Below the pieces are notes generated by a model. That model saw only the letters and a list, made by a program, of their open reading frames with translations, ran no database searches and had not been told where the DNA came from. A stretch of DNA of 64,000 nucleotides. Origin: Actinomycetospora sp. NBRC 106375. Its GTDB lineage: Bacteria > Actinomycetota > Actinomycetes > Mycobacteriales > Pseudonocardiaceae. Positions 19,123 to 43,948 of the stretch are shown piece by piece. Both the position numbers and the translations under genes were made by a program. Location: the NCBI RefSeq assembly GCF_030269665.1, contig NZ_BSTS01000009.1, forward strand, positions 124,001 through 188,000, read 5' to 3'. How positions within the stretch are numbered: the first letter of the stretch is position 1; each line of letters opens with the position of its first letter.

Positions 19123-19206
19123 ATGCCCGCGAACCGCCTGCTCCTCGTGGCCCGTCGCCACGTGGACCTCGGCCGTCTCGCGAGCGCCCTCTGCCCGGTG
19201 TGCTGA
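19123..19206 (+). CDS. HVDL-type leader peptide 1
   Basis: A 27-codon ORF ending in ARRHVDLGRLASALCPVC, 30 nt before the (broken) MFS gene. The R-x-HVDLxRxxS core with Cys near the stop recurs in five other tiny ORFs in this window. All of those precede sulfur-related or adjacent genes. I infer a cis-acting attenuator whose translation senses a Cys-related signal. Confidence 0.75.
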   Translation: MPANRLLLVARRHVDLGRLASALCPVC

Positions 19207-19236
19207 CGCCCGCCCACCCCACCGCAGAGGACACCC

Positions 19237-20182
19237 ATGACCACGGCCCCGCCTGCCCTCGATCAGCAGGCCACCACCACCAGCCCCCGGACGGTGCTCG
19301 TCGCGAGCCTCATCGGCACGACGATCGAGTGGTACGACTTCTTCCTGTTCGCGACGGCGGCGGGGATCGTCTTCCCGCAGCTGTTCTACGGCAACGGCGA
19401 CCCCACGGTCGCGACGCTGCTGTCGTTCGCGACGTTCGCGGTGGGCTTCGTCGCCCGCCCGATCGGCGGGCTGATCTTCGGGCACATCGGCGACCGGTTC
19501 GGGCGGCGCGAGACGCTGATCGTGACGATGGCGCTGACCGGCCTCGCGACGGCGGCGATCGGGTTCCTCCCGACCTACGCCGCCATCGGCGTCGCGGCGC
19601 CGATCCTGCTGGTCGTCCTCCGGGTGGTCCAGGGCATCGCGATCGGCGGCGAGTGGGGCGGCGCCGTGCCCTCGTCCTGACCTACACGGTGGCGACGCTG
19701 AAGATGCCGCGCACCGAGGTGCTGGTCGCGGTCACCGTGGCCGCGATCCTCAGCGCGCTCGTCGTCCCGCTCGCCGGGGCGTGGGGCGACCGGATCGGGC
19801 GCGGCAAGGTGTTCGCGCTCGGGTGCGTCCTCCTCGTGATCGGGGTCTTCCCGGCGTTCGCGCTGCTCGGCACCGGCTCGATCGTCGCGGTGACCGCGGT
19901 GCTCCTCGTCATGCTCGGCCTGTCCTACGGCCTGTCCAGCGGCGCGGAGTCGACGTTGTTCGCCGAGGTCTTCCCCACCTGCACCCGCTACACCGGCATG
20001 TCCCTGGCCTTCCAGGGCGGCGGGATCTATGCCTCCGGCCTGACCCCGCTGATCCTCACCTTCCTGCTCGCCGCCAGCGGCGGCACGCCCTGGCTCGCCG
20101 CGGCCTACCTCGCGCTCGCGGGCGCCGTCAGCACGGTCGCCGCCCTGCGCGCGAAGCCCCTCGAGACGCTCGAGGAGCCCCG
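19237..20182 (+). pseudogene. MHS-type MFS transporter, internal deletion and frame change
   Basis: The first 147 codons encode the N-half of a metabolite:H+ symporter (IGTTIEWYDFFLF, GFVARPIGGLIFGHIGDRFGRRETL, RVVQGIAIGGEWGGAV) and then hit a stop at 19680. From about 19668, in another frame, the sequence resumes as VLTYTVATLKMPRTEVLV with the last transmembrane helices (GLSYGLSSGAESTLFAEVFPTCTRYTGMSL). In homologues roughly 130 residues separate these parts. A deletion whose length is not a multiple of three explains the arrangement. The C-terminal frame also lacks a stop before ssuD. It was probably an uptake system for the sulfur source used by SsuD. Confidence 0.85.
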
Positions 20183-21334
20183 ATGTCGATCACAGCTCAC
20201 TGGTTCCTGCCGACCTACGGCGACTCGCGCGGCCTCGTCGGCGGCGGGCACGGCGTGGCCACGACGGCCGCCGACGCCGTCCGACCCGCCGAGATCGGCT
20301 ACCTCGCCCAGATCGCCCGCGCCGCCGAGACCGTCGGGTTCGAGGGCGCCCTCACGCCCACCGGCGCGTGGTGCGAGGACGCCTGGCTGACCACGGCGAT
20401 GCTCGTCGCGGAGTCCGAGCGGCTGAAGTTCCTCGTCGCGTTCCGTCCCGGGGTCCTGTCCCCCACGCTCGCCGCCCAGCAGGCCGCCACGTTCCAGCGG
20501 CACTCCCAGGGACGCCTGCTGCTCAACGTCGTCACCGGCGGCGAGCCCGCCGAGCAGCGCGCCTACGGCGACTACCTGGGCAAGGACGACCGCTACGTGC
20601 GCACCGGCGAGTTCCTCGAGGTGGTGCGCCGGCTCTGGGCCGGCGAGACGGTGACCCTGCACGGTGAGCAGATCCACGTCGACGAGGCCGCCCTGACCCG
20701 CGTGCCCGACCCGGTGCCGCCGGTCTACTTCGGCGGGTCCTCGCCCAAGGCCGGCGAGGTCGCGGCGGAGCACGTCGACGTCTACCTGACCTGGGGCGAG
20801 CCGCCCGAGCAGGTGCGGCAGAAGATCGAGTGGATCCGCGGCCTGGCCGCCGCGCAGGGCCGCGAGGTCCGGTTCGGCATCCGCCTGCACGTGATCGCCC
20901 GCGACACGTCCGACGCGGCGTGGGCCCAGGCCGAGCAGTACCTCCGCGGCATCCCGGAGGAGATGATCGAGAAGCTGCAGTCGGGCCTGTCGCGCAGCGA
21001 GTCCGAGGGCGAGCAGCGCATGCGCGCCCTGCACTCCGGGGGCACGAAGACCGCCGCCGACCTCGAGGTCGCCCCCAACCTCTGGGCGGGGGTCGGCCTT
21101 GTGCGCGGCGGGGCGGGGACCGCGCTCGTCGGCAGCCACACCGAGGTCGCCGACCGGATCGCGGAGTACCACGACCTCGGGATCACCGAGTTCGTCCTGT
21201 CCGGGCACCCGCACCTCGAGGAGGCGTACTGGGTCGGCGAGGGCGTCCTGCCCGAGCTGGGCCGACGCGGCCTGTGGTCGCACCCGGCCGGCACCGTCGA
21301 CGCCGCCCCGGCCGCGGTGCCCTTCGCCCAGTAG
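20183..21334 (+). CDS. ssuD: FMNH2-dependent alkanesulfonate monooxygenase (SsuD-like)
   Basis: This 383-residue luciferase-fold (TIM barrel) flavoprotein splits C-S bonds in sulfonates, releasing sulfite plus an aldehyde, using FMNH2 from a separate reductase. Family marks are AHWFLPTYGDSR at the N-terminus, FLVAFRPGVLSPTLAAQQAATFQRHSQGRLLLNVVTGG, DRYVRTGEFLEVVRRLW, PPVYFGGSSPKAGEVAAEHVDVYLTWGEP, and SGHPHLEEAYWVGE near the end. The ATG has CGAGGAG upstream. It follows the damaged MFS gene and leader 1, and releases the sulfite that the downstream Sir enzyme reduces. No ssuE-type reductase is adjacent. Confidence 0.88.
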   Translation: MSITAHWFLPTYGDSRGLVGGGHGVATTAADAVRPAEIGYLAQIARAAETVGFEGALTPTGAWCEDAWLTTAMLVAESERLKFLVAFRPGVLSPTLAAQQAATFQRHSQGRLLLNVVTGGEPAEQRAYGDYLGKDDRYVRTGEFLEVVRRLWAGETVTLHGEQIHVDEAALTRVPDPVPPVYFGGSSPKAGEVAAEHVDVYLTWGEPPEQVRQKIEWIRGLAAAQGREVRFGIRLHVIARDTSDAAWAQAEQYLRGIPEEMIEKLQSGLSRSESEGEQRMRALHSGGTKTAADLEVAPNLWAGVGLVRGGAGTALVGSHTEVADRIAEYHDLGITEFVLSGHPHLEEAYWVGEGVLPELGRRGLWSHPAGTVDAAPAAVPFAQ

Positions 21335-21383
21335 CTGAACGTCACGTGGCCATCGGTCCCCTGCTCGTGGCAGGCTCGTGGTC

Positions 21384-21467
21384 ATGTGCGCGCCGGGCGA
21401 CCTCCTCGTGAGTCGACGTCACGTCGACCTCGTGCGCCTCGCCAGCGCCCTCTGCCGCGCCTGCTGA
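21384..21467 (+). CDS. HVDL-type leader peptide 2
   Basis: A 27-codon ORF ending in SRRHVDLVRLASALCRAC, 110 nt upstream of the sulfite reductase start. A CAGGCT hexamer ends seven bases before the ATG and could be a -10 element of a leaderless transcript. There is no obvious Shine-Dalgarno. Two Cys codons lie in the last four positions, which fits Cys-responsive attenuation of the sir-cysHDN operon. Confidence 0.78.
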   Translation: MCAPGDLLVSRRHVDLVRLASALCRAC

Positions 21468-21577
21468 GCGCGAGCCCCGCCACCACGCCCGAGCGGCTGT
21501 CGCGCGTCCACCTCGAGGTCCGCCCTCGTCGTGTGTCCGCGCGCGGCCGTGCACCACCCCCGGAGGACACCCGAACC

Positions 21578-23368
21578 ATGGCCGACGCCCCGTCGTCCGA
21601 GAACGCCGCGACCTCCGAGGAGTCGTACGCGGAGACCACCCCGCTGCGACACACCGGGGCGACCGAGGACGCGCCACCGAAGGCGAAGCCGGCGCAGGGC
21701 GCGCAGGGGGCCCGGAAGAGGAAGGGCCGAGCCGAGGGCCAGTGGGCGCTGGGCTACCGCGAGCCGCTGAACAAGAACGAGCAGTCCAAGAAGGACGACC
21801 ACCCGCTGAACGTGCGGGCGCGCATCGAGAACATCTACGCCCACGGCGGCTTCGACTCGATCGACCCGGCCGACCTGCGCGGGCGCTTCCGGTGGATGGG
21901 GCTCTACACCCAGCGGGCCGAGGGCTTCCCCGGCACCGACACCGGGCACGTCGAGGAGGAGGAGCTCGACGCCCGGCACTTCATGATGCGCATCCGGGTC
22001 GACGGCGGCGGGCTGACCACCGAGCAGCTGCGGGTCATCGGCGAGATCAGCCAGACGTTCGCCCGCGACACCGCCGACGTCACCGACCGCGAGAACATCC
22101 AGCTGCACTGGATCCGCGTCGAGGACGTCCCCGAGATCTGGCGCCGCCTCGAGGCCGTGGACCTCTACACCACCGAGGCCTGCGGCGACTGCCCGCGCGT
22201 GGTTCTGGGCTCGCCGGTCGCCGGCATCAGCAAGGACGAGGTCATCGACGGCACCCCGGCGGTCGACGAGATCGTCGCGCGGTTCATCGGCGACCGCTCG
22301 CTGGCCAACCTCCCCCGCAAGTTCAAGACCGCGATCTCCGGGCAGCAGGACGTCGCGCACGAGGTCAACGACGTCAGCTTCGTCGGGGTCGTCCACCCCG
22401 AGCACGGCCCGGGCTTCGACCTCCACGTCGGCGGCGGACTGTCGACCAACCCGAAGCTCGCGGTGCGCCTGGGCGCCTGGGTGCCGCTCGACGAGGTCGC
22501 CGACGTGTGGCACGCCGTCACCTCGGTCTTCCGCGACTACGGCTACCGGCGGCTGCGCACCCGGGCGCGCCTCAAGTTCCTCATCGCCGACTGGGGCCCC
22601 GAGAAGTTCCGGCAGGTGATGGAGGACGAGTACCTGCACCGCACGCTGATCGACGGTCCCGCGCCCGAGGAGATCGCCGGCACCATCGACCACATCGGCG
22701 TGCACGACCAGGTCGACGGCAACCACTACGTCGGCGTCGCCCCGCCCGCGGGGCGCACCAGCGGCTCGACGCTCGTCGGCGTCGCCAAGGCCGCGGAGGA
22801 GGCCGGCTCCGGGCGGGTGCGGCTCACCCCGTACCAGAAGATCCTCGTGCTGGACGTGCCGAGCGACACGCTCGACGCGCTCACCACCACGCTCGACCAC
22901 CTCGGCCTGCCCGCCCGCCCGACGCCGTGGCGGCGCGCGACGATGGCGTGCACCGGCCTCGAGTTCTGCAAGCTCGCCTTCGTCGACACCAAGAACCGCG
23001 CCGGCGAGCTGGTCGAGGAGCTCGACCGGCGCCTCGCGGACGTCCAGGACGCCCTCGAGCACCCGGTGTCGATCCACCTCAACGGCTGCCCGAACTCCTG
23101 CGCGCGGGTCCAGGTCGCCGACATCGGCCTCAAAGGCCAGATCGTCAACGACGCCGAGGGCAACCCGGCGGCGGGCTTCCAGGTGCACCTCGGCGGCGGG
23201 CTCGGCCTCGACGCCGGCTTCGGGCGCAAGCTGCGCGGCCACAAGGTGCTCTCCGCCGAGCTCGGCGACTACGTCGAGCGGGTCGTGCGCCACTACGCCG
23301 AGCAGCACGAGCCGGGCGAGCGCTTCGCCCAGTGGGTCGTCCGCGCGGAAGAAGCGCAGCTCTCATGA
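21578..23368 (+). CDS. sir: ferredoxin-dependent assimilatory sulfite reductase
   Basis: This 596-residue siroheme/[4Fe-4S] enzyme reduces sulfite to sulfide with six electrons. The cluster ligands are CTGLEFC and NGCPNSC (C-x5-C ... C-x3-C). Substrate-side motifs include RENIQLHWI, CGDCPRVVLGSP, GFDLHVGGGLSTNPKLAVRLGAW and the homologous C-terminal repeat GFQVHLGGGLGLDAGFGRK. The first 60 residues are a low-complexity lead. The ATG at 21578 has GGAGGA upstream. It heads the operon with the zinc-ribbon ORF, cysH, cysD and cysN, all overlapping or nearly so, and corresponds in position to mycobacterial nirA/sirA. Confidence 0.95.
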   Translation: MADAPSSENAATSEESYAETTPLRHTGATEDAPPKAKPAQGAQGARKRKGRAEGQWALGYREPLNKNEQSKKDDHPLNVRARIENIYAHGGFDSIDPADLRGRFRWMGLYTQRAEGFPGTDTGHVEEEELDARHFMMRIRVDGGGLTTEQLRVIGEISQTFARDTADVTDRENIQLHWIRVEDVPEIWRRLEAVDLYTTEACGDCPRVVLGSPVAGISKDEVIDGTPAVDEIVARFIGDRSLANLPRKFKTAISGQQDVAHEVNDVSFVGVVHPEHGPGFDLHVGGGLSTNPKLAVRLGAWVPLDEVADVWHAVTSVFRDYGYRRLRTRARLKFLIADWGPEKFRQVMEDEYLHRTLIDGPAPEEIAGTIDHIGVHDQVDGNHYVGVAPPAGRTSGSTLVGVAKAAEEAGSGRVRLTPYQKILVLDVPSDTLDALTTTLDHLGLPARPTPWRRATMACTGLEFCKLAFVDTKNRAGELVEELDRRLADVQDALEHPVSIHLNGCPNSCARVQVADIGLKGQIVNDAEGNPAAGFQVHLGGGLGLDAGFGRKLRGHKVLSAELGDYVERVVRHYAEQHEPGERFAQWVVRAEEAQLS

Positions 23369-23516
23369 GCGGGAGCCGATCGCTGCCGTTGCAGTACTGC
23401 CCCTACTGCGGCGAGCAGGACCTGCGGCCCGGGAGGAACCCGACGGGGCCTGGGAGTGCGCCGACTGCCGCAGCACCTTCGTCGTCACACCCGTCCCTCA
23501 GGAGGCACGGCGATGA
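23365..23516 (+). pseudogene. small zinc-ribbon protein between sir and cysH, single-base frameshift
   Basis: From ATG 23365 (overlapping the sir stop as ATGA) the reading gives LPLQYCPYCGEQDLRP and then leaves frame. If one base is restored in the C/G run around 23428-23433, the frame continues EEPDGAWECADCRSTFVV and ends at a TGA (23514-23516) that overlaps the cysH ATG. This restores a 50-residue protein with CPYC...CADC. A small zinc-ribbon protein is common at this place in actinobacterial sir-cysH operons. Either the gene is broken here or the base is a sequencing error. Confidence 0.75.
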
Positions 23517-24238
23517 CCAGCACGGAAGCCCGCGAGGACCTGCGCGCCGCCGCGCTCGCGGCCGGCGAGAGGTTCGCGGCACGGGAACAGGACACCGATC
23601 ACGAGGAGCTGACCCACGAGATCCTCGCGTGGGCCGCGGAGACGTACGGCGCGGACCTCATCGTCGCGTCGAACATGCAGGACGCCGTGCTCGTCGAGCT
23701 CGGCGCGGCCGCCCGTCCCGGCGTCGACGTGCTGTTCCTCGAGACCGGCTACCACTTCGCCGAGACCCTCGGCACGCGCGACGCCGTCGCCCAGGTCTAC
23801 GGCGTGCGGATCGTGCAGGCCGAGCCGGAGCTCACCGTCGGGGAGCAGGACGAGCAGTTCGGGAAGGACCTCTTCGCGAGCGACCCCGGCGCGTGCTGCG
23901 GGATGCGCAAGGTCGAGCCGCTGAAGAAGACCCTGGCGAACTACGACGCGTGGGTCACGGGCGTGCGCCGCGTCGAGGCCCCGACGCGCGCGACCACCCC
24001 GCTGGTCACCTGGGACGAGCGCCACGGCCTGGTGAAGGTCAACCCGATCGCCCACTGGACCGACGAGCAGATGGACGCCTACATCCGCGACCACGCGATC
24101 CTGGTCAACCCGCTGGTCGGCGAGGGCTACCCCTCGATCGGCTGCGCGCCGTGCACCGCCAAGCCGGCCCCGGGCGCCGACCCGCGCAGCGGGCGCTGGG
24201 CCGGGTTCACGAAGACCGAGTGCGGGCTGCACGGATGA
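23513..24238 (+). CDS. cysH: adenosine 5'-phosphosulfate (APS) reductase
   Basis: This 241-residue reductase converts APS (or PAPS) to sulfite using thioredoxin. The paired cysteines CCGMRKVEPL and the second pair CAPCT form the [4Fe-4S] site that marks the APS-using class, and the catalytic Cys lies in the C-terminal ECGLHG. The PP-loop-like N-domain contains VASNMQDAVLVEL and FLETGYHF. Together with CysDN and no visible APS kinase, this implies direct reduction of APS rather than PAPS. Starts and stops overlap both neighbours by 4 nt. Confidence 0.95.
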   Translation: MTSTEAREDLRAAALAAGERFAAREQDTDHEELTHEILAWAAETYGADLIVASNMQDAVLVELGAAARPGVDVLFLETGYHFAETLGTRDAVAQVYGVRIVQAEPELTVGEQDEQFGKDLFASDPGACCGMRKVEPLKKTLANYDAWVTGVRRVEAPTRATTPLVTWDERHGLVKVNPIAHWTDEQMDAYIRDHAILVNPLVGEGYPSIGCAPCTAKPAPGADPRSGRWAGFTKTECGLHG

Positions 24239-25152
24239 CCGCCGCCGCCATCCCGACGACGGGCACCGACCAGCTCGACGCCCTCGAGTCCGAGGCGATC
24301 CACGTCATGCGCGAGGTCGCCGGCGAGTTCGACCGCCCGGTGATCCTCTTCTCCGGCGGCAAGGACTCGATGCTGCTGGTGCACCTGGCGAGGAAGGCGT
24401 TCTGGCCGGCGCCGATCCCGTTCCCGGTGCTGCACGTCGACACCGGGCACAACTTCGACGAGGTCATCGACTTCCGCGACGCCGTCGTCGCGCGCTACGG
24501 GCTCGAGCTCGAGGTCGCCCGCGTGCAGGACTACATCGACGACGGCCGGCTGGCCGAGCGCCCCGACGGCACCCGCAACCCGCTGCAGACCACGCCGCTA
24601 CTCGACGCCATCGCCGAGCACCGCCACGACGCCGTCTTCGGCGGCGGGCGCCGCGACGAGGAGCGCGCCCGGGCCAAGGAGCGCGTGTTCAGCCTGCGCA
24701 CCGCGTTCGGGCAGTGGGAGCCGTCGCGCCAGCGCCCCGAGCTGTGGAACCTCTACAACGGGCGCCACAAGCCCGGCGAGCACGTGCGCGTGTTCCCGCT
24801 GTCGAACTGGACCGAGCTCGACGTGTGGCGCTACATCGCCCGCGAGGGCGTCGAGCTCCCGTCGATCTACTACGCGCACGAGCGCGAGGTGTTCGCCCGC
24901 GACGGCATGTGGCTCACCAGCGGGCCGTGGGGCGGGCCGGGCGACGGCGAGGAGGTCCGGACGCTGTCCGTGCGCTACCGCACGGTCGGCGACGGCTCCT
25001 GCACCGGCGCCGTCGCGTCCACCGCGACGACGCTCGACGAGGTGCTCGACGAGGTGCGCGAGAGCCGCCTGACCGAGCGCGGCGCCACGCGGGCCGACGA
25101 CCGCCTCTCGGAGGCCGCCATGGAGGACCGCAAGCGAGAGGGCTATTTCTAG
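24235..25152 (+). CDS. cysD: sulfate adenylyltransferase subunit 2
   Basis: This 305-residue PP-loop ATP pyrophosphatase activates sulfate to APS with CysN. The PP-loop is FSGGKDSMLLVHLARKAF. Conserved segments are FPVLHVDTGHNFDEVIDFRD, GGGRRDEERARAKER, FPLSNWTELDVWRYI and a C-terminal RKREGYF. ATG 24235 overlaps the cysH stop. The open frame extends far upstream across cysH and sir in a different frame, but that part is not coding. Confidence 0.96.
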   Translation: MTAAAIPTTGTDQLDALESEAIHVMREVAGEFDRPVILFSGGKDSMLLVHLARKAFWPAPIPFPVLHVDTGHNFDEVIDFRDAVVARYGLELEVARVQDYIDDGRLAERPDGTRNPLQTTPLLDAIAEHRHDAVFGGGRRDEERARAKERVFSLRTAFGQWEPSRQRPELWNLYNGRHKPGEHVRVFPLSNWTELDVWRYIAREGVELPSIYYAHEREVFARDGMWLTSGPWGGPGDGEEVRTLSVRYRTVGDGSCTGAVASTATTLDEVLDEVRESRLTERGATRADDRLSEAAMEDRKREGYF

Positions 25153-25154
25153 AC

Positions 25155-26435
25155 ATGACCGATCTGCTCCGTCTCGCCACCGCCGGTTCCGTCGACGACG
25201 GCAAGTCCACGCTGGTCGGGCGCCTGCTCTACGACACGAAGTCGGTGCTCGCCGACCAGATGGAGGCCGTCGAGCGCGCCACGCAGGGGGGCGGTGACCC
25301 CGACCTCTCGCTGCTCGTCGACGGGCTGCGCTCCGAGCGCGAGCAGGGCATCACGATCGACGTCGCCTACCGCTACTTCGCGACGCCCACCCGGTCGTTC
25401 GTCCTGGCCGACACGCCCGGCCACGTGCAGTACACCCGGAACACGGTCACCGGCGCGTCGACAGCGTCGCTGGGCGTCCTGCTCGTCGACGCGCGCCACG
25501 GCATCGTCGAGCAGACCCGCCGCCACGTCGCGGTGATGGGTCTGCTGCGCGTCCCGCGCCTGGTGCTCGCGGTGAACAAGATGGACCTCGTCGACTTCGA
25601 CGAGAACACCTACTGGCGCATCGCCAAGGAGTTCGTCGGGCTCACCGAGGCCCTCGGGTACGCCGAGTCCGACGTCGTCGCGATCCCGCTGTCGGCGAAG
25701 AAGGGCGACAACGTCGTCCTGTCCTCGCGGAACACTCCCTGGTACGAGGGCCCGACGCTGCTCGAGCACCTGGAGACCGTGCCGGTCGAGGGCGCCGACC
25801 ACACCGCGCCGTTCCGCTTCCCCGTGCAGTACGTCGTGCGCCCGCGCACCGAGGACCACCCCGACTACCGCGGCTACGCCGGGCTCGTCGCGGCGGGCAC
25901 GGTGCGCGTCGGCGACGAGGTCGAGGTCCTGCCCGACGGCCAGCGCACCCGCGTCGAGGGGATCGACACCTTCGACGGTGAGCGCGACGCCGCCCACGAC
26001 GGCCAGAGCGTCGTGCTGCGCCTGGCCGACGACCTGGGGATCGCCCGCGGCGCGCTCCTCGCCGCGCCGGGCTCGCCGGAGCCCGTGACGGAGTTCGACG
26101 CGACGCTTGCGTGGCTGCACGAGAAGCCGCTGCGCCCGGGGGCGCGCCTGCTGCTCAAGCACGGCACGCGCACCGTGCAGGCGATCGTCGGCGCCGTGAC
26201 CCACAAGCTCGACACCGACACGCTCACCGTCGACGAGGACCCCGGCGAGCTCGGGATCAACGACATGGGCCAGGTGTCGCTGACGGTCTCCGAGCCGCTG
26301 CCGCTCGACCCCTACGACGAGATCGCCGCCACCGGGTCGTTCCTGCTGATCGACCCGCAGGCCGGCGACACGCTCGGCGCGGGCCTCGTGGGGCGCCCGC
26401 TCGTGGCGCGCCCGCTGCAGGCGCTCGAGGGCTGA
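25155..26435 (+). CDS. cysN: sulfate adenylyltransferase subunit 1 (GTPase)
   Basis: This 426-residue GTPase drives CysD. Motifs: G1 GSVDDGKSTL, G2 region ERE-QGITIDVAYRYF, G3 DTPGHVQYTRN, G4 NKMD and G5 SAKKGDN, then two EF-Tu-like beta domains. It ends at about the length of the stand-alone subunit, so there is no fused CysC APS kinase. This agrees with the APS-reductase route of CysH. The start codon is two bases beyond the cysD stop. The operon ends at a strong hairpin (26447-26485). Confidence 0.96.
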   Translation: MTDLLRLATAGSVDDGKSTLVGRLLYDTKSVLADQMEAVERATQGGGDPDLSLLVDGLRSEREQGITIDVAYRYFATPTRSFVLADTPGHVQYTRNTVTGASTASLGVLLVDARHGIVEQTRRHVAVMGLLRVPRLVLAVNKMDLVDFDENTYWRIAKEFVGLTEALGYAESDVVAIPLSAKKGDNVVLSSRNTPWYEGPTLLEHLETVPVEGADHTAPFRFPVQYVVRPRTEDHPDYRGYAGLVAAGTVRVGDEVEVLPDGQRTRVEGIDTFDGERDAAHDGQSVVLRLADDLGIARGALLAAPGSPEPVTEFDATLAWLHEKPLRPGARLLLKHGTRTVQAIVGAVTHKLDTDTLTVDEDPGELGINDMGQVSLTVSEPLPLDPYDEIAATGSFLLIDPQAGDTLGAGLVGRPLVARPLQALEG

Positions 26436-35513: not shown

Positions 35514-36071
35514 TCAGCCCACGCTGACGTTGACATTCGTCGGGTTGGACAGGGCGTCGAACACCGCGGAACGCTTCTGCGACTGGGCGACGAGCGCGGC
35601 GATGTCCTCCTCGCTGGCGTCGGCGTCGATGTCGAAGTGGACGTTGACGTCGTTGAAGCCGTTGCGGACCTCGGGGTCGCCGCCGAGGATGCCGAGCACG
35701 TTGTGGTTGCCCTCCACGGTCGCCTTGACCGAGCGCAGCTGGATGCCCCGGTTCTGCGCGACGGCGGCGACGCCCGCGGTCAGGCAGCCGGCGAGGCCGG
35801 CGAGCACCGTCTCCACAGGTGTGGGTGCGCGGTCCTCGGACGCGAAGACCTCCGGATGGTCGCCCTCGAGGACGTACGCCTGCTTGTGCTGCTGCGCGGC
35901 ACCCAGGCCCGAGAAGTGCTCGATGGTCTGCTTCGAGTAGGTGCCGTCCTCCCACTCCGAGGTCACCTTCCACACGAACTCGGCGGCCTGGGGCGCTTCC
36001 TTCAGCGCGTCGCGGGCCTGCAGCAGGGCCTCGGTGTTGACGTTGTTGTTGACGGTCGGGGTCGCGGTCAT
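35514..36071 (-). CDS. OsmC-family protein 1
   Basis: This 185-residue protein has the OsmC/Ohr fold: FVWKVTSEWEDGTYS, then APTPVETVLAGLAGCLTAGVAAVAQNRGIQL with the peroxidatic-position Cys, and LVAQSQKRSAVFDALSNPTNVNV. Where OsmC/Ohr enzymes have a second Cys the sequence has RSAVFD, so a classical Cys-pair peroxidase mechanism is unlikely. An HVDL leader (36191-36259) lies 119 nt upstream, which places it in the inferred sulfur regulon. It converges with the flavoprotein gene. ATG 36071 is the best-supported start. Confidence 0.85.
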   Translation of the reverse strand: MTATPTVNNNVNTEALLQARDALKEAPQAAEFVWKVTSEWEDGTYSKQTIEHFSGLGAAQQHKQAYVLEGDHPEVFASEDRAPTPVETVLAGLAGCLTAGVAAVAQNRGIQLRSVKATVEGNHNVLGILGGDPEVRNGFNDVNVHFDIDADASEEDIAALVAQSQKRSAVFDALSNPTNVNVSVG

Positions 36072-36416
36072 CGCGTGCTCCAGGAGTGCTCGTTGGTCGT
36101 TGTGTCGGTCGGTACCGATCACGGTCCGATCCCCCGCCGGACGACGACGGCACGTCGCAGGGATGGCGCCAGGGCCGGGCGGGTGCGCGCTCAGCGGCCG
36201 GGTCGACAGCCCATGCCGGCGGTGCGGCACAGGTCGACGTGCCACCGCCTCACCAGCATCGTGTGACCGCGCACACAGCCGTTCCTAGCGGAACCGTCGT
36301 CGCAGGCCAAGGGCTTGCGGGTCACGCTGGGCGGTTCGGGTGGCTGCCGTCACCGAGGGCCTCGGATCACTCACGGAGGGGCGACCGCGACCCTCCCGGA
36401 TGCCACGATCACGGCC
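36072..36416. other. 345-nt divergent region with leader peptide and small dyad
   Basis: The gap separates OsmC 1 (minus) from the PLP enzyme (plus). It contains the HVDL leader for OsmC (36191-36259) and, just upstream of that leader's ATG, an imperfect GTGTG-N6-CACAC dyad at 36261-36276 that could be an operator. No plus-strand leader was found for the PLP gene. Confidence 0.5.
36191..36259 (-). CDS. HVDL-type leader peptide 3
   Basis: A 22-codon ORF beginning MLVRRWHVDLCRTAGMGC, upstream of OsmC 1. The HVDLCR core is the same as in leaders 4 and 6, with Cys both inside and after it. The 119 nt that follow before the OsmC ATG could fold as an attenuator, but I could not fold them reliably by eye. 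Confidence 0.75.
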   Translation of the reverse strand: MLVRRWHVDLCRTAGMGCRPGR

Positions 36417-37619: not shown

Positions 37620-37672
37620 TCGTGTCCGCTGCGCACTTTTCCGGTTGCGCGCGATCGGGTAGGAACGGGGTC

Positions 37673-37744
37673 GTGAGCCTCCTGGTCCGGCGTTTGCACG
37701 TCGACCTCTGCCGGCTCGCGACGACCACGTGTGGCCGCGGCTGA
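37673..37744 (+). CDS. HVDL-type leader peptide 4
   Basis: A 23-codon GTG ORF reading LLVRRLHVDLCRLATTTCGR, 75 nt upstream of OsmC 2. TAGGAA ends seven bases before the GTG, and a leaderless start is plausible. The segment between leader and gene is a GC-rich run with possible hairpins (37752-37810). Confidence 0.75.
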   Translation: MSLLVRRLHVDLCRLATTTCGRG

Positions 37745-37819: not shown

Positions 37820-38293
37820 ATGGCTGTCCAGCCCAAGGAGACCGTCGTCCCGTTCGCCGTCCACGGCGAGGGCACCGGCGTCGCGCAGGAGCTCACCGCC
37901 GGCGGTCACGTCTTCACCACCGACGCCTACCCGGCCTTCGGCGGTGCCGACGAGGCCCCGAGCCCGCTGTTCTATGCCCTCGGCTCGCTGACCTCGTGCA
38001 ACCAGGTCACCGCCTCGCTCGTCGCCAAGGACCTCGGCGTCCGCCTCGGCCGGTGGACCTTCGACATCCAGGGCGACCTCGACACCGCCGTCCTCGTCGG
38101 CGGCGCCGAGGGCAACGCGAACTTCGACAAGGTCGAGGTCCGCGCGACCGTCGAGACCGACGCGAGCGAGGAGCAGTTCGCCACGCTCATCTCCGAGACC
38201 GAGCGCCGCTGCCCCGTGACGCAGCTCTTCCGGCGCTCGGGCCTCGAGTTCGTCAACGACTGGACCCGCGCGGAGCTGCCGGCTGCCGTCTGA
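37820..38293 (+). CDS. OsmC-family protein 2
   Basis: This 157-residue protein also has the OsmC fold, but with both Cys in place: LGSLTSCNQVTASLVAKDLGVRLGRWTFDIQGDLDTAV for the first, and ERRCPVTQLFRRSGLEF for the second (RCPV matches the OsmC CPV motif). It is therefore a better candidate for a thiol peroxidase or organic hydroperoxide/sulfane sulfur enzyme than OsmC 1. ATG 37820 has GAAAGG upstream. Leader 4 precedes it. A repeat region follows. Confidence 0.86.
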   Translation: MAVQPKETVVPFAVHGEGTGVAQELTAGGHVFTTDAYPAFGGADEAPSPLFYALGSLTSCNQVTASLVAKDLGVRLGRWTFDIQGDLDTAVLVGGAEGNANFDKVEVRATVETDASEEQFATLISETERRCPVTQLFRRSGLEFVNDWTRAELPAAV

Positions 38294-38308
38294 GGCCCGA
38301 GGGTCGTC

Positions 38309-38432: not shown

Positions 38433-38511
38433 TGCGGGGCGAACGCTGGCGGCGTCGCCGCGGCGTGGGCGACGCTGGAGGAGAGCCCTCGGTCCGCGAA
38501 GGAGGACGACG

Positions 38512-39501
38512 ATGTCCGGTCTCCCGGTCCTCGACCTGCGCCGGTTCCGCTCCGGCGACCACTCCGCTGATCGGGGGGCGTTCCTCGACGAGCTCCGCCG
38601 TGCGGCGCGGGAGGTCGGGTTCTTCACGGTCGTCGGTCACGGCATCCCGCCGGCGCTGACCGCGCGTCTCGACGAAGAGGTGCGCGCGTTCTTCGCCCTC
38701 CCGCTCGACGAGCGCCTCACGATCGAGAACACCGCGTCACCGCACTTCCGCGGCTACAGCCGGGTCGGCACCGAGCGCACGGCGGGCGCCGCCGACCAGC
38801 GCGAGCAGATCGACATCGGGCCGGAGCGGGCGCCGGTGAGCGGGGACGCCCGGTACTGGGGCCTCGTCGGCCCCAACCAGTGGCCGCCCGCGCTGCCGGC
38901 GCTGCGCGCGGCGGTGCTCGCCTGGCAGGACGAAGCGCTGCGGGTGAGCCGGGAGATCCTGCGCGCGCTGGCCGCGTCGCTCGGCCAGGCCGAGGACCAC
39001 TTCGACCGCTGGTTCGACGAGGAGTCGCACCTGCACCTCAAGGTCCTGCACTATCCCGGGGGTGCCGCGACCGCGCAGGGCGTCGGCGCGCACAAGGACT
39101 ACGGGTTCCTCGCGCTGCTGCACCAGGACGACGTCGGCGGCCTCGAGGTCCAGGTGCCCGGCGCCGACGCGTGGATCGGTGCCGCGCCGGTCCCCGACGG
39201 CTACGTCGTCAACATCGGCGAGATGCTCGAGGTCGCCACCCGCGGCTACCTCACCGCCACCCGCCACCGGGTGGTCGGCCCGGCCGCGGGCGTCGACCGC
39301 TACTCGGTGGCGTTCTTCCTCGGCCCGCGCCTCGACGCCGTCGTCGAACCCGTCGACCTGCCGCCGGAGCTCGCCGCAGAGACCGGTGACTGGGACCCGA
39401 ACGACGACCCCGACAACCCCCTGCTCGCCGCGTACGGCGAGAACGCGCTGGTCGGCTGGCTGCGCTCGCACCCGACCGTCGCCGAGCGGTTCTGGAGCTG
39501 A
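38512..39501 (+). CDS. 2-oxoglutarate/Fe(II)-dependent dioxygenase (isopenicillin-N-synthase-like)
   Basis: This 329-residue enzyme has the DIOX_N region (PVLDLRRFR, REVGFFTVVGHGIP, FFALPLDERL) and the catalytic core. Iron ligands are the H and D of VGAHKDYGFLALLHQDD and the His of ATRHRVVGP. The 2-oxoglutarate binding arginine is in DRYSVAFFLGP, where RYS matches the family RxS motif. It is similar to flavonoid/IPNS-like oxygenases with unknown small-molecule substrates. ATG has GGAGGACGAC upstream. A family F hairpin overlaps the end of the gene. Confidence 0.87.
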   Translation: MSGLPVLDLRRFRSGDHSADRGAFLDELRRAAREVGFFTVVGHGIPPALTARLDEEVRAFFALPLDERLTIENTASPHFRGYSRVGTERTAGAADQREQIDIGPERAPVSGDARYWGLVGPNQWPPALPALRAAVLAWQDEALRVSREILRALAASLGQAEDHFDRWFDEESHLHLKVLHYPGGAATAQGVGAHKDYGFLALLHQDDVGGLEVQVPGADAWIGAAPVPDGYVVNIGEMLEVATRGYLTATRHRVVGPAAGVDRYSVAFFLGPRLDAVVEPVDLPPELAAETGDWDPNDDPDNPLLAAYGENALVGWLRSHPTVAERFWS

Positions 39502-39575
39502 GGTGCGCCTGCGGCGCATGTGAGCAGTTCGGAGTGCTCGAGCAGTCCGAAGTGCTCACGTGCGCGGAGCGCACC
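39502..39575. terminator. long hairpin (family F copy 2)
   Basis: A nearly perfect 35-bp stem-loop immediately after the dioxygenase stop, with GTGCGC..GCGGCGCA..GTGAGCA arms. Related to 30780-30853. It likely terminates the dioxygenase transcript. Confidence 0.75.
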
Positions 39576-39634
39576 TCGTCCGCCGGCCGCGAACACCGGT
39601 CCGCGAGGCCCGCCAGCTCCCTAGCGTCAGTGCC

Positions 39635-40405
39635 GTGACGGTGACGACGCGCACGGTGGAGTACCCGGCCGACGGCCTGACGATGATCGGGCACCTCGCG
39701 CTCCCAGGCGGCGACGGCCGGCGGCCCGCGGTCCTCGTCGGGCCGGAGGGCACCGGGCTGAACGCGTTCCAGCGCGCGCGGGCCGACGCCCTCGCCGAGC
39801 TCGGGTACGTCGCGTTCGCCTTCGACATCCACGGGGGACTATGGTTCGACGACCCCCAGGAGATGCTGGCGCGCTGCCTGCCGCTGCTCGACGACCCCGA
39901 GCGGATGCGCGAGATCGGCGGCGCGGCGCTCGAGGTGCTGCGTGCCGAGACGCGCACCGATCCGGACCGCATCGCCGTGGTCGGCTACGGCACCGGCGGC
40001 GCGATCGGGCTGGAGCTCGGGCGCGCCGGCGTCGACCTGCGGGCCATCGCGACGGTCAACGGTCTGATCACGGGCCGGCCCGGCGAGGCGGCGGCCATCC
40101 GCTGCCCGGTGTGGGCCGGGGTCGGCTCGGAGGACCCCATCCAGCCTCCCGCGCAGCGCGACGCGTTCGCCGCCGAGATGCAGGACGCGGGCGTCGACTG
40201 GCGTCTCGTGACCTACGGCGGCGCGCTGCACGCGTTCCACCACCCGCCGACGAACCCGGACGGCACCGTCAACCTCGACGGCGGGTACGGCCAGACCGTG
40301 CTCCCCGGCGTCGGGTACCACGCCCGGCACGCACAGCGGGCGTGGGACGACGTCGTTCGCCTGCTGGCCGAGGAGCTGGCGCCGGTGCGACCGGCGCCGG
40401 TCTGA
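39635..40405 (+). CDS. dienelactone hydrolase-family protein lacking the nucleophile
   Basis: This 256-residue alpha/beta protein matches the dienelactone hydrolase family: VEYPADGLTMIGHLALPGGDGRRPAVLVGPEGTGL, AELGYVAFAFDIHG, RIAVVGYGTGGAIGLELGRAG, then GGALHAFHHPPTNPDGTVNLDGGYG-like C-terminal His region. In active members the elbow is G-x-C/S-x-G-G, but here it is GYGTGG, so the catalytic Cys/Ser is Gly. The His after ALHAF is retained. It may be non-catalytic or use a different mechanism. GTG 39635 (VTVTTRT) is the best start. Confidence 0.78.
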   Translation: MTVTTRTVEYPADGLTMIGHLALPGGDGRRPAVLVGPEGTGLNAFQRARADALAELGYVAFAFDIHGGLWFDDPQEMLARCLPLLDDPERMREIGGAALEVLRAETRTDPDRIAVVGYGTGGAIGLELGRAGVDLRAIATVNGLITGRPGEAAAIRCPVWAGVGSEDPIQPPAQRDAFAAEMQDAGVDWRLVTYGGALHAFHHPPTNPDGTVNLDGGYGQTVLPGVGYHARHAQRAWDDVVRLLAEELAPVRPAPV

Positions 40406-40449
40406 CGCCTCGTCGCGGGCGATTGACCCGGCTCCAGCGGCGGAGGAGC

Positions 40450-40518
40450 GTGGACGTCGTGGTGCTCCTGGTGTCACGCCGGCACGTCGACCTCGGTCGC
40501 GTGTCGTCGGCGCTCTGA
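40450..40518 (+). CDS. HVDL-type leader peptide 5, Cys-less
   Basis: A 22-codon GTG ORF ending LLVSRRHVDLGRVSSAL, with GGAGGAG just upstream. It matches leaders 1 and 2 up to SSAL but stops where the others continue with Cys codons, so it contains no Cys. It precedes a truncated monooxygenase, and both appear to be decaying. Confidence 0.72.
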   Translation: MDVVVLLVSRRHVDLGRVSSAL

Positions 40519-40567
40519 GACGGGTCCCCCGGACCGACCCGTCTCCCAGGAAAGCGAGCCACCCCCA

Positions 40568-40915
40568 ATGCCCGTCGAGTTCCTCGGCATCGCCGCGACC
40601 AACGACGGCTCCGAGATCACCCCACGCTCGGGTCCCGCCTTCGATCCCGACTACACGCTGCGCCTCGCCCGCGCCCACCGCGACAACGGCTGGGACCGCG
40701 TCCTGACCGCGTACTCGTCCGGCAGCCCCGACCCCGCACAGGCCGCGACGTACATCCTCGACCACGTCGACGGCCTGCAGCTGCTCGTCGCGCACCGGCC
40801 GAACCTGTCGATCCCCACGTTCGCAGCGAAGACGTTCGCGACGATGGACCTCATCGGCTCCGGCCGTGTGACCGTCCACGTCATCACCGGCGGCAACCAG
40901 CACGAGCAGGCCTGA
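40568..40915 (+). pseudogene. truncated SsuD-type monooxygenase
   Basis: The ORF codes for 115 residues matching the first third of the 370-residue monooxygenase at 27275 (VEFLGIAATNDGSEI, GWDRVLTAYSSGSPD, LQLLVAHRPNLSIPTFAAKTFATMDLIGSGRVTVHVITGG) and stops directly after GGNQHEQA, where the full-length protein reads QARDGD. The family D hairpin begins 21 nt later, followed by an unrelated gene. The remaining about 250 residues are absent. Confidence 0.85.
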
Positions 40916-40935
40916 GCTCGCCCCGACGTACGCAA

Positions 40936-40980
40936 CGAACGCGCCGTTCGCTGCTTCTATCGCAGCGAACGGGGCGTTCG
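40936..40980. repeat. hairpin, family D copy 2
   Basis: CGAACGCGCCGTTCGCTGC, TTCTATC loop, then the complement with one mismatch (GCAGCGAACGGGGCGTTCG). It is almost identical to the copy at 42047-42091. It sits just behind the break point of the truncated monooxygenase. Confidence 0.85.
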
Positions 40981-41001
40981 CTGCTTCCCGGTGCCAGGAT
41001 C

Positions 41002-42021
41002 ATGCCCGTGGCGAGGATGCGTGCCGTCGTGCTCAGCGGACCGGGCGACCTGACCGCGCTGCAGATCAAGGACCTGATCGTCCCCGAGCCGCAGCCCGGG
41101 CAGGTGCTCATCGCGGTGAAGGCCTTCGGGGTCAACCGCTCCGAGCTCCACACGCGGCTCGGGCTCGCCGACGGCGTGACGTTCCCGCGCGTGCCCGGCA
41201 TCGAGGCGGCCGGGGTGGTGGCCGACTGCCCGGGCGGCGAGTTCGTCCCGGGCCAGCAGGTGGTCACGATGATGGGTGGGATGGGCCGCACCTTCGACGG
41301 CGGCTACGCGGAGTACACCTGCGTGCCGGCCGGGCAGGTCATCGCGTTCTACAGCGACCTCGACTGGCCGACGATCGGTGCGGTGCCCGAGATGCTCCAG
41401 ACCGCCCACGGTGCGCTCACCGACGGGCTCGACGTGCGGCCCGGCCAGTCGCTGCTCGTGCGCGGCGGGACGTCGTCGGTGGGCATGGCGGCCGCGGTCC
41501 TGGCGAAGTCCCGCGGCCTCACCGTGCTCGCCACGACGCGCACCGCGGCGAAGGCCGAGAAGCTGCGCGCGCTCGGCGTCGACCACGTGCTGGTCGACGA
41601 CGGGGACGTGGCCCGGCAGGTCCGCGACGTCCTCGGCGACGGCGTCGACACCGCGCTGGAGCTCGTCGGCACCCCGACCCTGCCCGACACCCTGCGCGCC
41701 ACGCGGCGCCACGGCGTCGTCTGCTTCGCCGGGATGCTCTCGAACCAGTGGACGGTGCCGGACTTCTACCCCATCGACTACCTGCCCCGCGGCGTGCGGC
41801 TCACCGCCTACGGCGGGGAGGCCAGCGACCTCCCCGCCGCGGTGCTGCAGCAGTTCCTCGACGACGTCGCGGGCGGCCGCGCCACCGTCCCGCTCGGTCA
41901 GGTCTTCCCGATCGAACGCATCCGCGACGCCCACTCGATCATGGAAGGCGACCGGGCCACGGGGAAGATCGTCATCCTCCCCCGCCCGCTGCGCTGGCGC
42001 CCCCACGCCGCCCCGAGATGA
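41002..42021 (+). CDS. quinone-oxidoreductase-like MDR protein
   Basis: This 339-residue medium-chain dehydrogenase/reductase has the GroES-like N-domain (VKAFGVNRSELHTRLG, FPRVPGIEAAGVV, DGGYAEYTCVPAGQVI) and the NADPH Rossmann motif (LLVRGGTSSVGMAAAVLAKSRG). The zinc ligands of alcohol dehydrogenases are absent, as usual for quinone oxidoreductases. A GTG or ATG start at 41002 or 41017 is possible. It lies between two family D hairpins. Substrate unknown. Confidence 0.85.
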   Translation: MPVARMRAVVLSGPGDLTALQIKDLIVPEPQPGQVLIAVKAFGVNRSELHTRLGLADGVTFPRVPGIEAAGVVADCPGGEFVPGQQVVTMMGGMGRTFDGGYAEYTCVPAGQVIAFYSDLDWPTIGAVPEMLQTAHGALTDGLDVRPGQSLLVRGGTSSVGMAAAVLAKSRGLTVLATTRTAAKAEKLRALGVDHVLVDDGDVARQVRDVLGDGVDTALELVGTPTLPDTLRATRRHGVVCFAGMLSNQWTVPDFYPIDYLPRGVRLTAYGGEASDLPAAVLQQFLDDVAGGRATVPLGQVFPIERIRDAHSIMEGDRATGKIVILPRPLRWRPHAAPR

Positions 42022-42046
42022 GCTCTCGCACCGCCCGCAGATGAAA

Positions 42047-42091
42047 CGAACGCGCCGTTCGCTGCTTCTATCGCAGCGAACGGCGCGTTCG
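42047..42091. terminator. perfect hairpin, family D copy 3
   Basis: A perfect 19-bp stem with a TTCTATC loop (CGAACGCGCCGTTCGCTGC / GCAGCGAACGGCGCGTTCG), between the convergent MDR gene and the broken flavoprotein gene. It probably serves both as a terminator. Confidence 0.8.
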
Positions 42092-42109
42092 CTCCATCAA
42101 GGACGGTAC

Positions 42110-43334
42110 TCAGCTATACCAGGTCGGCTCGGGCAGCTCGTCGACGAGGACGAAGCGCCCGACCTCGCGACGCTTGTAGGCCACCGGGTCGTGCAGCGTG
42201 TGGGTGCGGACGTTGCGCCAGAACCGGTCGAAGCGCAGGGACGACGACGTGGAGCGGGCCCCGGTGACCTCGAAGATCCCGCTCGTGATCTCCAGGGCGA
42301 CCTCGGTGGCGCGCGCCTTGACCGCCGCGACCCGGACCTCGTGCTCGCCGCGCGCCCGCTCGGTGACCGCATCGGGGTCCCGGTGGATCACCAACCCCTC
42401 CGCCGCCACCGCGTCCGCCAGCGCCTCGACGGCCCACAGCTTGGCGGTGAGGTCGCCGTAGGTGTCGAACACGTACGGCTCGTCGACCGCGCGGGACTGC
42501 CCGCCGTGCAACCACGGTCGGGTCGTCGTGCGCGTGTAGTCGGCGGCCTCGTCGAGCGCTCCGCGGGCGATGCCGAGGTAGAAGGCGACGAACACGAGCT
42601 GGATCACCGGCACGTTCAGCGTGTTGTAGACGCGCGGCGTGAACACCTTGTCGCGGAACCCTGCCGCGGCCTCCCACGGCACCCGCACGCCGTCGAGCGA
42701 GACGCTGCCCGACTCGGTGAGCCGCTGGCCGATGGTGTCCCAGTCGTCGTGGAACGTGATCGCCGGCTGGTCGGACGGCACGATCGCGAAGACGTGGGTG
42801 TCGGTGCCCTCGATCACCCCTTCGAGCACGGTCACGTCGGAGACCTTGCTACCGGTCCGAGAACGACTTGCGGCCGGTGTAGACGACCTCGGCGCCCTCG
42901 TCGCGGATGACGACGTCGGCGTCGCGCGGGTTCACCGCGCCGCCGAAGAACCACCGGTGCCGCGTGGCCTCGGCCTCGACCTGGGCGATCTGCTCCGGCG
43001 TGCCGACGAGCCGCGCCGCCCAGAACCACAGCAGGTGGTAGCCGAGGAGCTGGCCGATCGAGCCGTCGCCGGCGGCCACCTCCCGGATGACGCGGTACGC
43101 GGTCGGCCACTCCTGGCCACCGCCGCCGTGCTCGACGGGCCCGAGCAGGGTGACGAGCCCCGAGTCCTTGAGCAGGGCGACCTCGGCGTACGGCGTCGCC
43201 CCCGCGGCGTCGCGCTCGGCGGCGTCGGCGGCGAGGAGCCCGCGGACGAGGCGGGCGCGCGCGAGCCACTCCTCCTCGGTGCGCGGGGTGGTCAGGGTGG
43301 CGAAGTCGGGGGTGCGGGTGAGCGTGCTGGTCAC
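42110..43334 (-). pseudogene. SfnB/DszC-like flavoprotein gene with 1-nt insertion
   Basis: From GTG 43334 (GAGGAGA upstream) the frame gives WFFGGAVNP, DADVVIRDEGAEVVYTGRKSFS and then hits DR-stop at 42849. Removing one G at about 42859-42862 restores TGSKVSDVTVLEGV and the frame runs to 42110. The restored protein of about 407 residues is paralogous to the intact protein at 28384, including LRFDRFWRNVRTHTLHDPVAYK. The paralogue keeps the conserved YSTG box at the break position (FSTG here). It could also be a sequencing error, but neighbouring genes in this stretch are decaying too. Confidence 0.85.
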
Positions 43335-43459
43335 GGGTTCTCCTCGATCAGGAACGGGTCGGGACGGGTCGAGGAGACCCGACATCGCTGGGCGCCCGTT
43401 CGGGCGTGGTCGACGTGCCGGCGCCGCACGAGCGGCACCAGCGCGAGCACCGGGGTCAC
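43331..43459 (-). CDS. HVDH-variant leader ORF, coupled at both ends
   Basis: A 42-codon ORF whose GTG overlaps the stop of the small ORF upstream (GTGA) and whose TGA overlaps the GTG of the flavoprotein gene. It reads PLVRRRHVDHARTGAQRCR near the start, a variant of the HVDL core with His replacing Leu and a Cys 9 residues on. Its last codons carry the flavoprotein's ribosome site. I infer a relic or coupled form of the leader. Confidence 0.6.
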   Translation of the reverse strand: MTPVLALVPLVRRRHVDHARTGAQRCRVSSTRPDPFLIEENP

Positions 43460-43671
43460 CGCCGTGGGGGCAGCGGGTGGCGATGCAGGTCGTCGCGCAG
43501 ACGCGCGAGGGCGGTGGCGACCTCGGCGGCGATGCGCTCGGCGTCACGGTCCCAGTGCTCGGTGCCCGCGTTGTCGCGGTTCACCTCACGGCGGACCAGC
43601 GAGTCCAGATCGGTGAGGAGCTCGGCGACGGCGGCGCCGCGCGGGCTGAAACGGGGGATGACAGTGGCCAT
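43456..43671 (-). CDS. small hypothetical protein (71 residues)
   Basis: ATG 43671 with CCGGAGGAATC upstream opens a 71-codon ORF. It has an amphipathic, Asp/Glu/Arg-rich composition (AAVAELLTDLDSLVRREVN, RIAAEVATALARLRDDLHRH) typical of a small coiled or helical protein. I recognise no family. It lies between leader 6 and the HVDH ORF and is coupled to the latter by GTGA. Confidence 0.6.
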   Translation of the reverse strand: MATVIPRFSPRGAAVAELLTDLDSLVRREVNRDNAGTEHWDRDAERIAAEVATALARLRDDLHRHPLPPRR

Positions 43672-43861
43672 GCGGGATTCCTCCGGTGGACCTCGCCCGG
43701 GACGGTGGCCGCGGCCGGCGAGGAGGTGTGGACGAGGGCGAGCAGCGGCGACAGACGACAGAGGTCGTCGAGGGCTCGCTGCACGCGCTGCGCGAGGGTC
43801 ATGTCGTGCTCCGGACGAGCGTGAGGACGGACCCGAGAGGCACCCGGGCGGACTCAGCAGG

Positions 43862-43948
43862 TCAGGGACGACAGATCGCAGCGGAGGTCCGGCACAGATC
43901 GACGTGACGGCGCCATGCGTGCCACACGGTGGAGGGCGCCTCGGTCAC
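43862..43948 (-). CDS. HVDL-type leader peptide 6
   Basis: A 28-codon ORF with WRRHVDLCRTSAAICRP at its end, divergent from the enoyl-CoA hydratase gene. The second GTG (43948) is preferred. TAGCGT (43957-43962) ends eight bases before it, a good -10 for a leaderless transcript. It precedes the small ORF, the HVDH ORF and the broken flavoprotein, and probably controls all three. Confidence 0.76.
   Translation of the reverse strand: MTEAPSTVWHAWRRHVDLCRTSAAICRP

Follow-up and report, generated by a model that had tools for sequence, protein, structure and literature searches.

HVDL leader peptides of Actinomycetota: putative cysteine-responsive attenuators with a fixed codon downstream of a conserved core

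Results

Seven short leader ORFs in the window

Short open reading frames (ORFs) with a common HVDL core precede sulfur-related genes in the stretch of DNA analysed here, a 64,000-nucleotide window from Actinomycetospora sp. NBRC 106375 (Pseudonocardiaceae; assembly GCF_030269665.1, contig NZ_BSTS01000009.1, positions 124,001-188,000 of the forward strand). A first-pass annotation had listed six such ORFs, claiming for all of them the peptide motif R-x-HVDL-x-R and for five a Cys near the end. All six were found at the coordinates and on the strands it gave, each with the motif, and five do have the Cys, the exception being the ORF at 40450-40518, which has a stop where the others have Cys. 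Numbering codons from the motif His (0) and scoring the peptides with the NCBIfam model NF042934 (cis_reg_atten, "putative leader peptide"), we describe them as Leader 1 (MPANRLLLVARRHVDLGRLASALCPVC; 19123-19206, plus strand; 34.1 bits; codon +11 TGC at 19192-19194), Leader 2 (MCAPGDLLVSRRHVDLVRLASALCRAC; 21384-21467, plus; 37.5 bits; +11 TGC at 21453-21455), Leader 3 (MLVRRWHVDLCRTAGMGCRPGR; 36191-36259, minus; 27.2 bits; +11 TGT at 36206-36208), Leader 4 (VSLLVRRLHVDLCRLATTTCGRG; 37673-37744, plus; 30.7 bits; +11 TGT at 37730-37732), Leader 5 (VDVVVLLVSRRHVDLGRVSSAL; 40450-40518, plus; 31.2 bits; +11 the stop TGA at 40516-40518, without any Cys codon) and Leader 6 (VTEAPSTVWHAWRRHVDLCRTSAAICRP; 43862-43948, minus; 29.8 bits; +11 TGT at 43871-43873). 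The window leaders contain zero to three scattered Cys each.

Chance is excluded as their origin, since the window has six copies of RxH[VIM]DLxR with a stop in the next 25 codons, whereas 60 dinucleotide-preserving shuffles of it have 0.017 on average (maximum 1). Across the whole genome the RxH[V/I/M]DLxR codon pattern has 12 sites, nine of them leaders and three inside long open frames, compared with 0 for a backward control pattern. A profile search of the 6.79 Mb genome with NF042934 found eight copies at or above the cut-off and two slightly below it, and six lie within the 25 kb from Leader 1 to Leader 6. The four genomic matches outside the window precede an acyl-CoA-dehydrogenase/SfnB-like gene, a rhodanese, an MFS transporter and a TauE-like gene, as labelled by Pfam on cluster representatives. 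Other Actinomycetospora genomes carry denser motif arrays (at least 11 pattern sites on contig G010:C2; also G420:C33, G015:C1 and loci L315-L318, L334-L340 and L208), which points to a variable sulfur island.

Leader 7 (VTPVLALVPLVRRRHVDHARTGAQRCRVSSTRPDPFLIEENP; 43331-43459, minus strand; +11 TGT at 43382-43384) was absent from the first-pass annotation. Its core is the divergent HVDH and it scores 10.4 bits, below the NF042934 cut-off of 27. The stop of Leader 7 and the GTG of the flavoprotein gene described below overlap, so that Leaders 6 and 7 stand in tandem before one gene, and ORFs of the same type occur in loci L190, L208 and L209. Start codons are uncertain: Leader 3 has an in-frame GTG five codons upstream (36274), which raises its NF042934 score from 27.2 to 27.9 bits and, judged by eye, has a TAGGAAC box at the customary spacing. 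This box lies close upstream of the likely GTG start of both OsmC leaders (37673, plus; 36191, minus) and also in locus L043, and by eye it looks like a promoter element common to OsmC leaders.

Leader 1 is followed by an interrupted MFS transporter and an SsuD-like alkanesulfonate monooxygenase (19237-21334, plus); the former is represented by an N-terminal ORF of 147 amino acids (19237-19680, within an interrupted span of 19237-20390), its relative in locus L035 having 442 amino acids, and the latter by the ORF at 19781-21334 (plus). Behind Leader 2 lies the sir/NirA-like sulfite reductase gene (21578-23368, plus), the first of sir-cysH-cysD-cysN (about 21578-26435). Two OsmC family genes follow Leader 3 (35514-36071, minus, start assigned by script) and Leader 4 (37820-38293, plus), and a 115-residue remnant of a luciferase-like (SsuD-like, LLM) monooxygenase follows Leader 5 (40568-40915, plus). 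Leaders 6 and 7 precede an interrupted DszC/SfnB-like flavoprotein gene (42110-43334, minus; N-terminal piece 42849-43334, C-terminal piece 42110-42835). The genes behind Leaders 1, 5 and 6/7 are interrupted in this draft genome, and their leaders read through. Elsewhere in the window a predicted S-adenosylmethionine (SAM) riboswitch (RF00162, 77 bits, 57843-57953, plus), immediately before a PALP-family pyridoxal phosphate enzyme (57966-59228), is a putative second RNA-level sulfur control.

The leaders belong to a known family with sulfur genes downstream

All six noted ORFs score at or above the curated NF042934 cut-off (27.2-37.5 bits), so the kind of element is already known, and the short HVDL-like leader peptides that the first-pass annotation had mentioned do exist as a curated family. 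A Pfam search of the six window peptides returned no family, and an Rfam search found none above gathering score at the leaders, its single match being the SAM riboswitch. The window leaders fall below the 45-bit cut-offs of the mycobacterial models NF042933 (Ms5788A) and NF042936 (Ms4527A), the best scores being 26.8 for Ms4527A (Leader 1) and 23.3 for Ms5788A (Leader 3 with the longer start). A mycobacterial-type leader (L029, RRAVDLCRVAGCCCCCCSC) passes both Ms5788A (54.9 bits; cut-off 45) and NF042934 (41.5 bits), and polycysteine leaders and window leaders therefore have one common core.

For the wider comparison we used a scan that required only [HAQ][VIML][DE]L-x-[RK] with a start codon and a stop close by; its 211 rows were reduced to 200 leaders by leaving out L090, L091 and L108 (minus), judged to be chance, and near-identical copies. 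The composition of this set depends on loci retrieved with Sir and on a protein model in which both the core and the Cys column are represented. The group labels "Streptomyces-type" (f14) and "mycobacterial-type" (f8) were assigned in this analysis. Downstream genes were assigned by a script with a gap limit of almost 400 bases and with some start codons mis-set, and it placed a gene behind 199 of the 200 leaders; neighbour labels derive from Pfam on one member in 20 of the 33 clusters, those for Sir and OsmC from the window genes.

The first-pass annotation had proposed a motif search over relatives as a check, and the plain neighbour counts are in favour of an association with sulfur genes. 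Among the 170 leaders outside the Sir-fetched loci, 73 precede plainly sulfur-specific families (sulfite reductase 24, rhodanese 17, ThiS/CysO-like 11, Cys dioxygenase 9, TauE 7, TauD 3, APS kinase 1, serine acetyltransferase 1). Another 68 precede families that are often tied to sulfur in our judgement (LLM monooxygenases 23, OsmC 13, SfnB-like 8, DUF4395 8, MFS 7, ABC permease 5, FMN reductase 4), and 29 neighbours are other or unassigned. The Sir-fetched sulfite reductase loci have a leader with HVD[LFYH] in 77 of 80 cases, one of the remaining three being without upstream DNA, and the strict HVDL-type core in 43 of 80. A phylum-wide profile scan, with up to 22 scored candidates per genome, gave a model match in at least 28 of 396 sampled genomes; 25 of 26 genomes, the window's own included, had a match.

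Codon +11 is kept by spelling and the core as peptide

Codon +11 is Cys in 191 of the 200 leaders, a stop in eight and Gly in one. The Cys is spelled TGT, the rare UGU, in 170 of these 191, whereas TGT makes up 5-14% of the Cys codons in long ORFs of the same loci. Excluding the mycobacterial-type group, +11 has TGT in 157 of its 178 Cys codons, compared with 19 of 143 for the rest of the leader (Fisher p about 6e-45, relatedness ignored), and at codon +4, in all groups, TGC is used in 61 of 63. Counted by units of gene cluster and taxon group, TGT has the majority at +11 in 46 of 49; if HVDF and HVDY leaders are counted, the Lentzea/Actinophytocola sir leaders would turn one further unit from TGT-majority. 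A wider recount of 267 leaders gave TGT 222, TGC 35, stop 9 and Gly 1. The first-pass annotation had rightly seen a Cys at or near the end, and had missed the exact position and its mostly UGU spelling.

As the Cys column is part of the protein model, the count was repeated with a DNA pattern blind to +11. Among the matches listed (94 distinct sites), 51 stop within 25 codons, with TGT at +11 in 43, TGC in five, TGA in two and another codon in one, which resembles a coding frame; the other 43 listed sites are in longer frames, and two of them, one with TGT and one with AGT, are leader-like. The blind search agrees with the Cys/TGT rule. No adjacent base is fixed across all groups; in Actinomycetospora the base after TGT is C in 65 of 68 cases.

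Upstream, Arg -2 is present in 200 of 200 leaders and is spelled with six codons (CGC 61, CGA 54, CGG 40, CGT 33, AGG 11, AGA 1); it was not demanded by the first scan but is favoured by the protein model. The distance from the core to the Cys or stop at +11 is constant in 199 of 200, and HVDF, HVDY and HVDH occur as core variants. An invariant Arg written in six ways, together with the TGT bias at +11, argues that what is conserved is the peptide in the core and the codon at +11.

This distinction bears on two other accounts of the ORFs. The HVDL codons might act as RNA, GAC CTC serving as an anti-Shine-Dalgarno element, and GACCTC does resemble one and some motif copies are identical in DNA. 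The groups have no common Leu codon, however (CTC 58 and CTG 36 in Actinomycetospora, CTG 27 and CTC 25 in the Streptomyces type, CTG in 11 of 13 in the mycobacterial type), and the six Arg codons and the HVDF, HVDY and HVDH leaders speak against it as well; we regard this role as ruled out by codon use, with next to no likelihood left to it. Alternatively, the ORFs might encode functional small proteins that do not act in cis. The conserved peptide core would suit this idea, but both termini vary freely, the seven window copies lie beside different genes and one codon is kept by spelling and not by residue, so that we consider it very improbable.

Leaders that end at codon +11

Eight of the nine leaders lacking the +11 Cys end exactly at +11 (TGA in seven, TAG in one). 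They represent about four leader types, have a Cys at +7 in four of the eight, and precede LLM monooxygenases in Actinomycetospora and a GST-like gene in the Streptomyces type; the ending of Leader 5 has a like-ended relative in locus L190. Such endings fit one fixed ribosome position on the RNA, though a loss of Cys codons by a single-base change would be a simple alternative. In the Streptomyces-type locus L239 a pair of leaders, at about 2556 (minus) and 3082 (plus), lies on opposite strands with about 0.5 kb between them, and the plus-strand one ends in SAY with the stop at +11 before a GST-like gene; the same two leader types lie about 4.7 kb apart in L233.

The stop-bearing leaders also suggest an arrest peptide. 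RxHVDLxR would then act in the exit tunnel to stall the ribosome with +11 in the A site and would sense a small molecule, whether free Cys or some other sulfur metabolite, with Cys-tRNA or a release factor only completing the step, and the stop-bearing leaders would be termination-arrest versions like those of the tryptophanase leader TnaC. The retention of Arg -2 as a residue, the constant spacing and the endings placed exactly at +11 argue for this account. On the other side, decoding by Cys-tRNA is suggested by the Cys at +11 of 191 in 200 leaders and by its preferred UGU spelling, the stops could be lost Cys codons because TGT or TGC becomes TGA by one base, and the core was favoured by the protein model that fetched most loci. 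Its ligand and stall are postulates; an arrest peptide is marked by a nascent-chain-dependent stall at one codon, and what the HVDL leaders display is the fixed spacing and the core. We hold this account to be rather unlikely.

Promoters, ribosome-binding sites and terminators

A TANNNT box lies 5-9 bases before an in-frame start in 66 of the 200 leaders, as compared with about 5 in shifted controls, a placement like that of leaderless mRNAs for about a third of the leaders. Leader 6 is the only clear case in the window, with the -10-like box TAGCGT at 43957-43962, 8 bases before the start.

Exact complementarity between leader and ribosome-binding site (RBS) was found in some families. Within Leader 1, CCTCTGC (19188-19194, plus) spans the +11 codon and is the exact complement of GCAGAGG (19224-19230, plus), the Shine-Dalgarno stretch of the MFS gene (ATG at 19237); this potential helix is present in five of the eight MFS-cluster leaders, all of one subtype (L002, L035, L047, L055, L087). 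In the Streptomyces-type Cys dioxygenase leaders CCGTCCT(G) can pair with (C)AGGACGG just before the GTG (7 of 9), and in Nocardioides sir leaders TCGCTGA can pair with TCAGCGA beside a Shine-Dalgarno-like stretch (11 of 23 Nocardioides/Glycomyces leaders). Consensus folding of nine gene-family groups gave z from -6.75 to +0.59, the strong groups being mycobacterial-type DUF4395 (6 sequences) and Streptomyces-type Cys dioxygenase (5 sequences); it was not relied on because the sequences are few and script starts are partly mis-set. A tRNA pattern search gave two matches of no use and was dropped.

TTTT occurs in only 8 of 199 leader-gene gaps, so intrinsic terminators are unlikely; with this count, and with no Rfam family at the leaders, the intrinsic terminator of a classical transcription attenuator was not found.

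Discussion

We consider it probable that the HVDL leaders are cysteine-responsive translational attenuators, as published for mycobacteria. The finding of the first-pass annotation is real, and its interpretation, cis-regulation by Cys or a Cys-derived signal, is supported in part and right in kind, the kind being known and named; the co-regulation of the set that it also proposed is a conjecture. Each short ORF would be the translated leader of a sulfur transcript, often beginning at the 5′ end of the mRNA, and the ribosome would translate it up to a fixed sensor position, codon 11 past the motif His, which is mostly a single Cys codon and usually the rare UGU. With charged Cys-tRNA in short supply, the ribosome would pause at +11 while RxHVDLxR occupies the exit tunnel some 5-12 residues back, and would cover leader RNA that otherwise folds onto the downstream RBS, so that the sulfur gene is translated. 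For the Cys response and the stalling we draw on the mycobacterial relatives by analogy; that RxHVDLxR itself helps the pause we only infer.

Several observations weigh against this reading. OsmC and GST-like neighbours lie outside sulfur assimilation, OsmC being linked to thiols and peroxides. Eight leaders, Leader 5 included, have a stop and one has Gly at the sensor position. TGC stands at +11 in window Leaders 1 and 2 and in the Actinomycetospora sir leaders (16 of 16), and likewise in 13 of the 15 sir leaders from Lentzea, Actinophytocola and related loci (L098-L112, one Nocardia record); with five of eight Actinomycetospora MFS leaders and one Streptomyces-type HVDF leader also having TGC, these exceptions largely follow clades. 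The -10 box that was sought is present in none of the 23 Nocardioides/Glycomyces leaders. Family-wide complementarity between leader and RBS, compared with mismatched leaders (154 of the 200 leaders, 40 gene-group means), was null at the sensor (percentile 0.522, s.e. 0.037), and the highest percentile, 0.587, belonged to an upstream segment. The duplex profile of 178 leaders differs in the expected direction by at most 0.27 kcal/mol (-0.27), and a simulated block at +11 barely opens the RBS (0.389 to 0.411, 145 leaders). The MFS cluster is an exception, since there the block raises RBS openness from 0.305 to 0.461, although a block at the stop codon acts alike. Sequestration of the RBS by leader RNA across the whole family was rejected on these three null or near-null tests; some gene families fit it.

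The null result on family-wide RBS pairing would suit a different coupling, hungry-codon attenuation through Rho or transcription, in which a stalled ribosome would shield the nascent RNA from Rho, low Cys would give read-through and RBS folding would be secondary. The leader-gene gaps, from 30 to almost 400 bases (the latter being the limit set by the script), and the rarity of intrinsic terminators are in keeping with it, and Rho was suggested for mycobacterial cys leaders in PMC1262725. The exact RBS complementarity in the MFS and Cys dioxygenase leaders speaks against it, as does the description of the mycobacterial relatives as translational attenuators in PMC9031893 and PMC13236596. We treat the Rho route as possible but doubtful. 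The route from pause to gene may differ among members.

A bolder reading, which we hold to be less likely than not, is a register-locked form of the sensor, in which an invariant Arg and the [HA]VD[LFYH]xR nascent chain lie in the tunnel as +11 enters the A site, with a TnaC-like stop branch. The HVDL leaders would then not be simple attenuators with a Cys run, +11 being mostly the rare UGU or, in the branch, a stop. The nascent chain would make the ribosome hesitate, and for this reason one Cys codon would suffice. The stop-bearing members would have swapped Cys-tRNA sensing for termination control and another sulfur signal.

As far as our searches of the open-licence PMC literature show, what is new is the register-locked, mostly UGU codon with its upstream core, the branch of leaders that end in a stop there, the core variants HVDF, HVDY and HVDH, and Leader 7, and no account of the role of the HVDL core outside mycobacteria was found in that literature. 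NF042934 is a protein model and cannot express the UGU spelling or the members with a stop at +11. The fixed codon register and the spelling preference make the function of the core sharply and cheaply testable, and they provide a codon-level signature by which sulfur genes, even unannotated ones that follow such leaders, could be located throughout the Actinomycetota.

Among known leaders, TnaC has conserved tunnel residues about 8-12 before its stall point and stalls at a stop codon. The HVDL leaders resemble it in having conserved residues upstream of a fixed point and, in some, a stop as that point; for the HVDL leaders a ligand and arrest are postulates, and we know of no sequence relation between the two. 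The Rhodobacterales leader uORFC-8-2 is likewise an upstream ORF with conserved Cys codons before a Cys gene, cysS (PMC8632094). It differs from the HVDL leaders in its intrinsic terminator, its tandem Cys codons and the dominance of UGC, and the portion of that paper available to us does not mention an HVDL core.

The closest systems are the polycysteine leaders of mycobacteria. Leaders with Cys runs and without terminators were predicted before mycobacterial cys operons in 2005 (PMC1262725), and the Cys codons of such ORFs in M. tuberculosis have been termed likely essential for regulation (PMC9094748). PMC4633059 places leaders before cysA2/Msmeg_5788 and nirA/Msmeg_4527, to which the model names Ms5788A and Ms4527A correspond, and reports ribosome occupancy for the cysA2 one; PMC9031893 and PMC13236596, both of which cite Canestrari 2020, state that attenuation, Cys-dependent or translational, controls such ORFs or Cys genes in M. 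smegmatis. The mycobacterial leaders have a Cys run, which the window leaders lack; in these the Cys are scattered, and the position common to the family is +11. Like the mycobacterial-type Cys attenuators, the HVDL elements of the window and its relatives are short leader ORFs before Cys or sulfur genes. Ms5788A (cysA2) and Ms4527A (nirA) have the same [HA]VDLCR/HVDL core with sulfur genes downstream, and the sir leader of the window precedes the same type of gene as Ms4527A.

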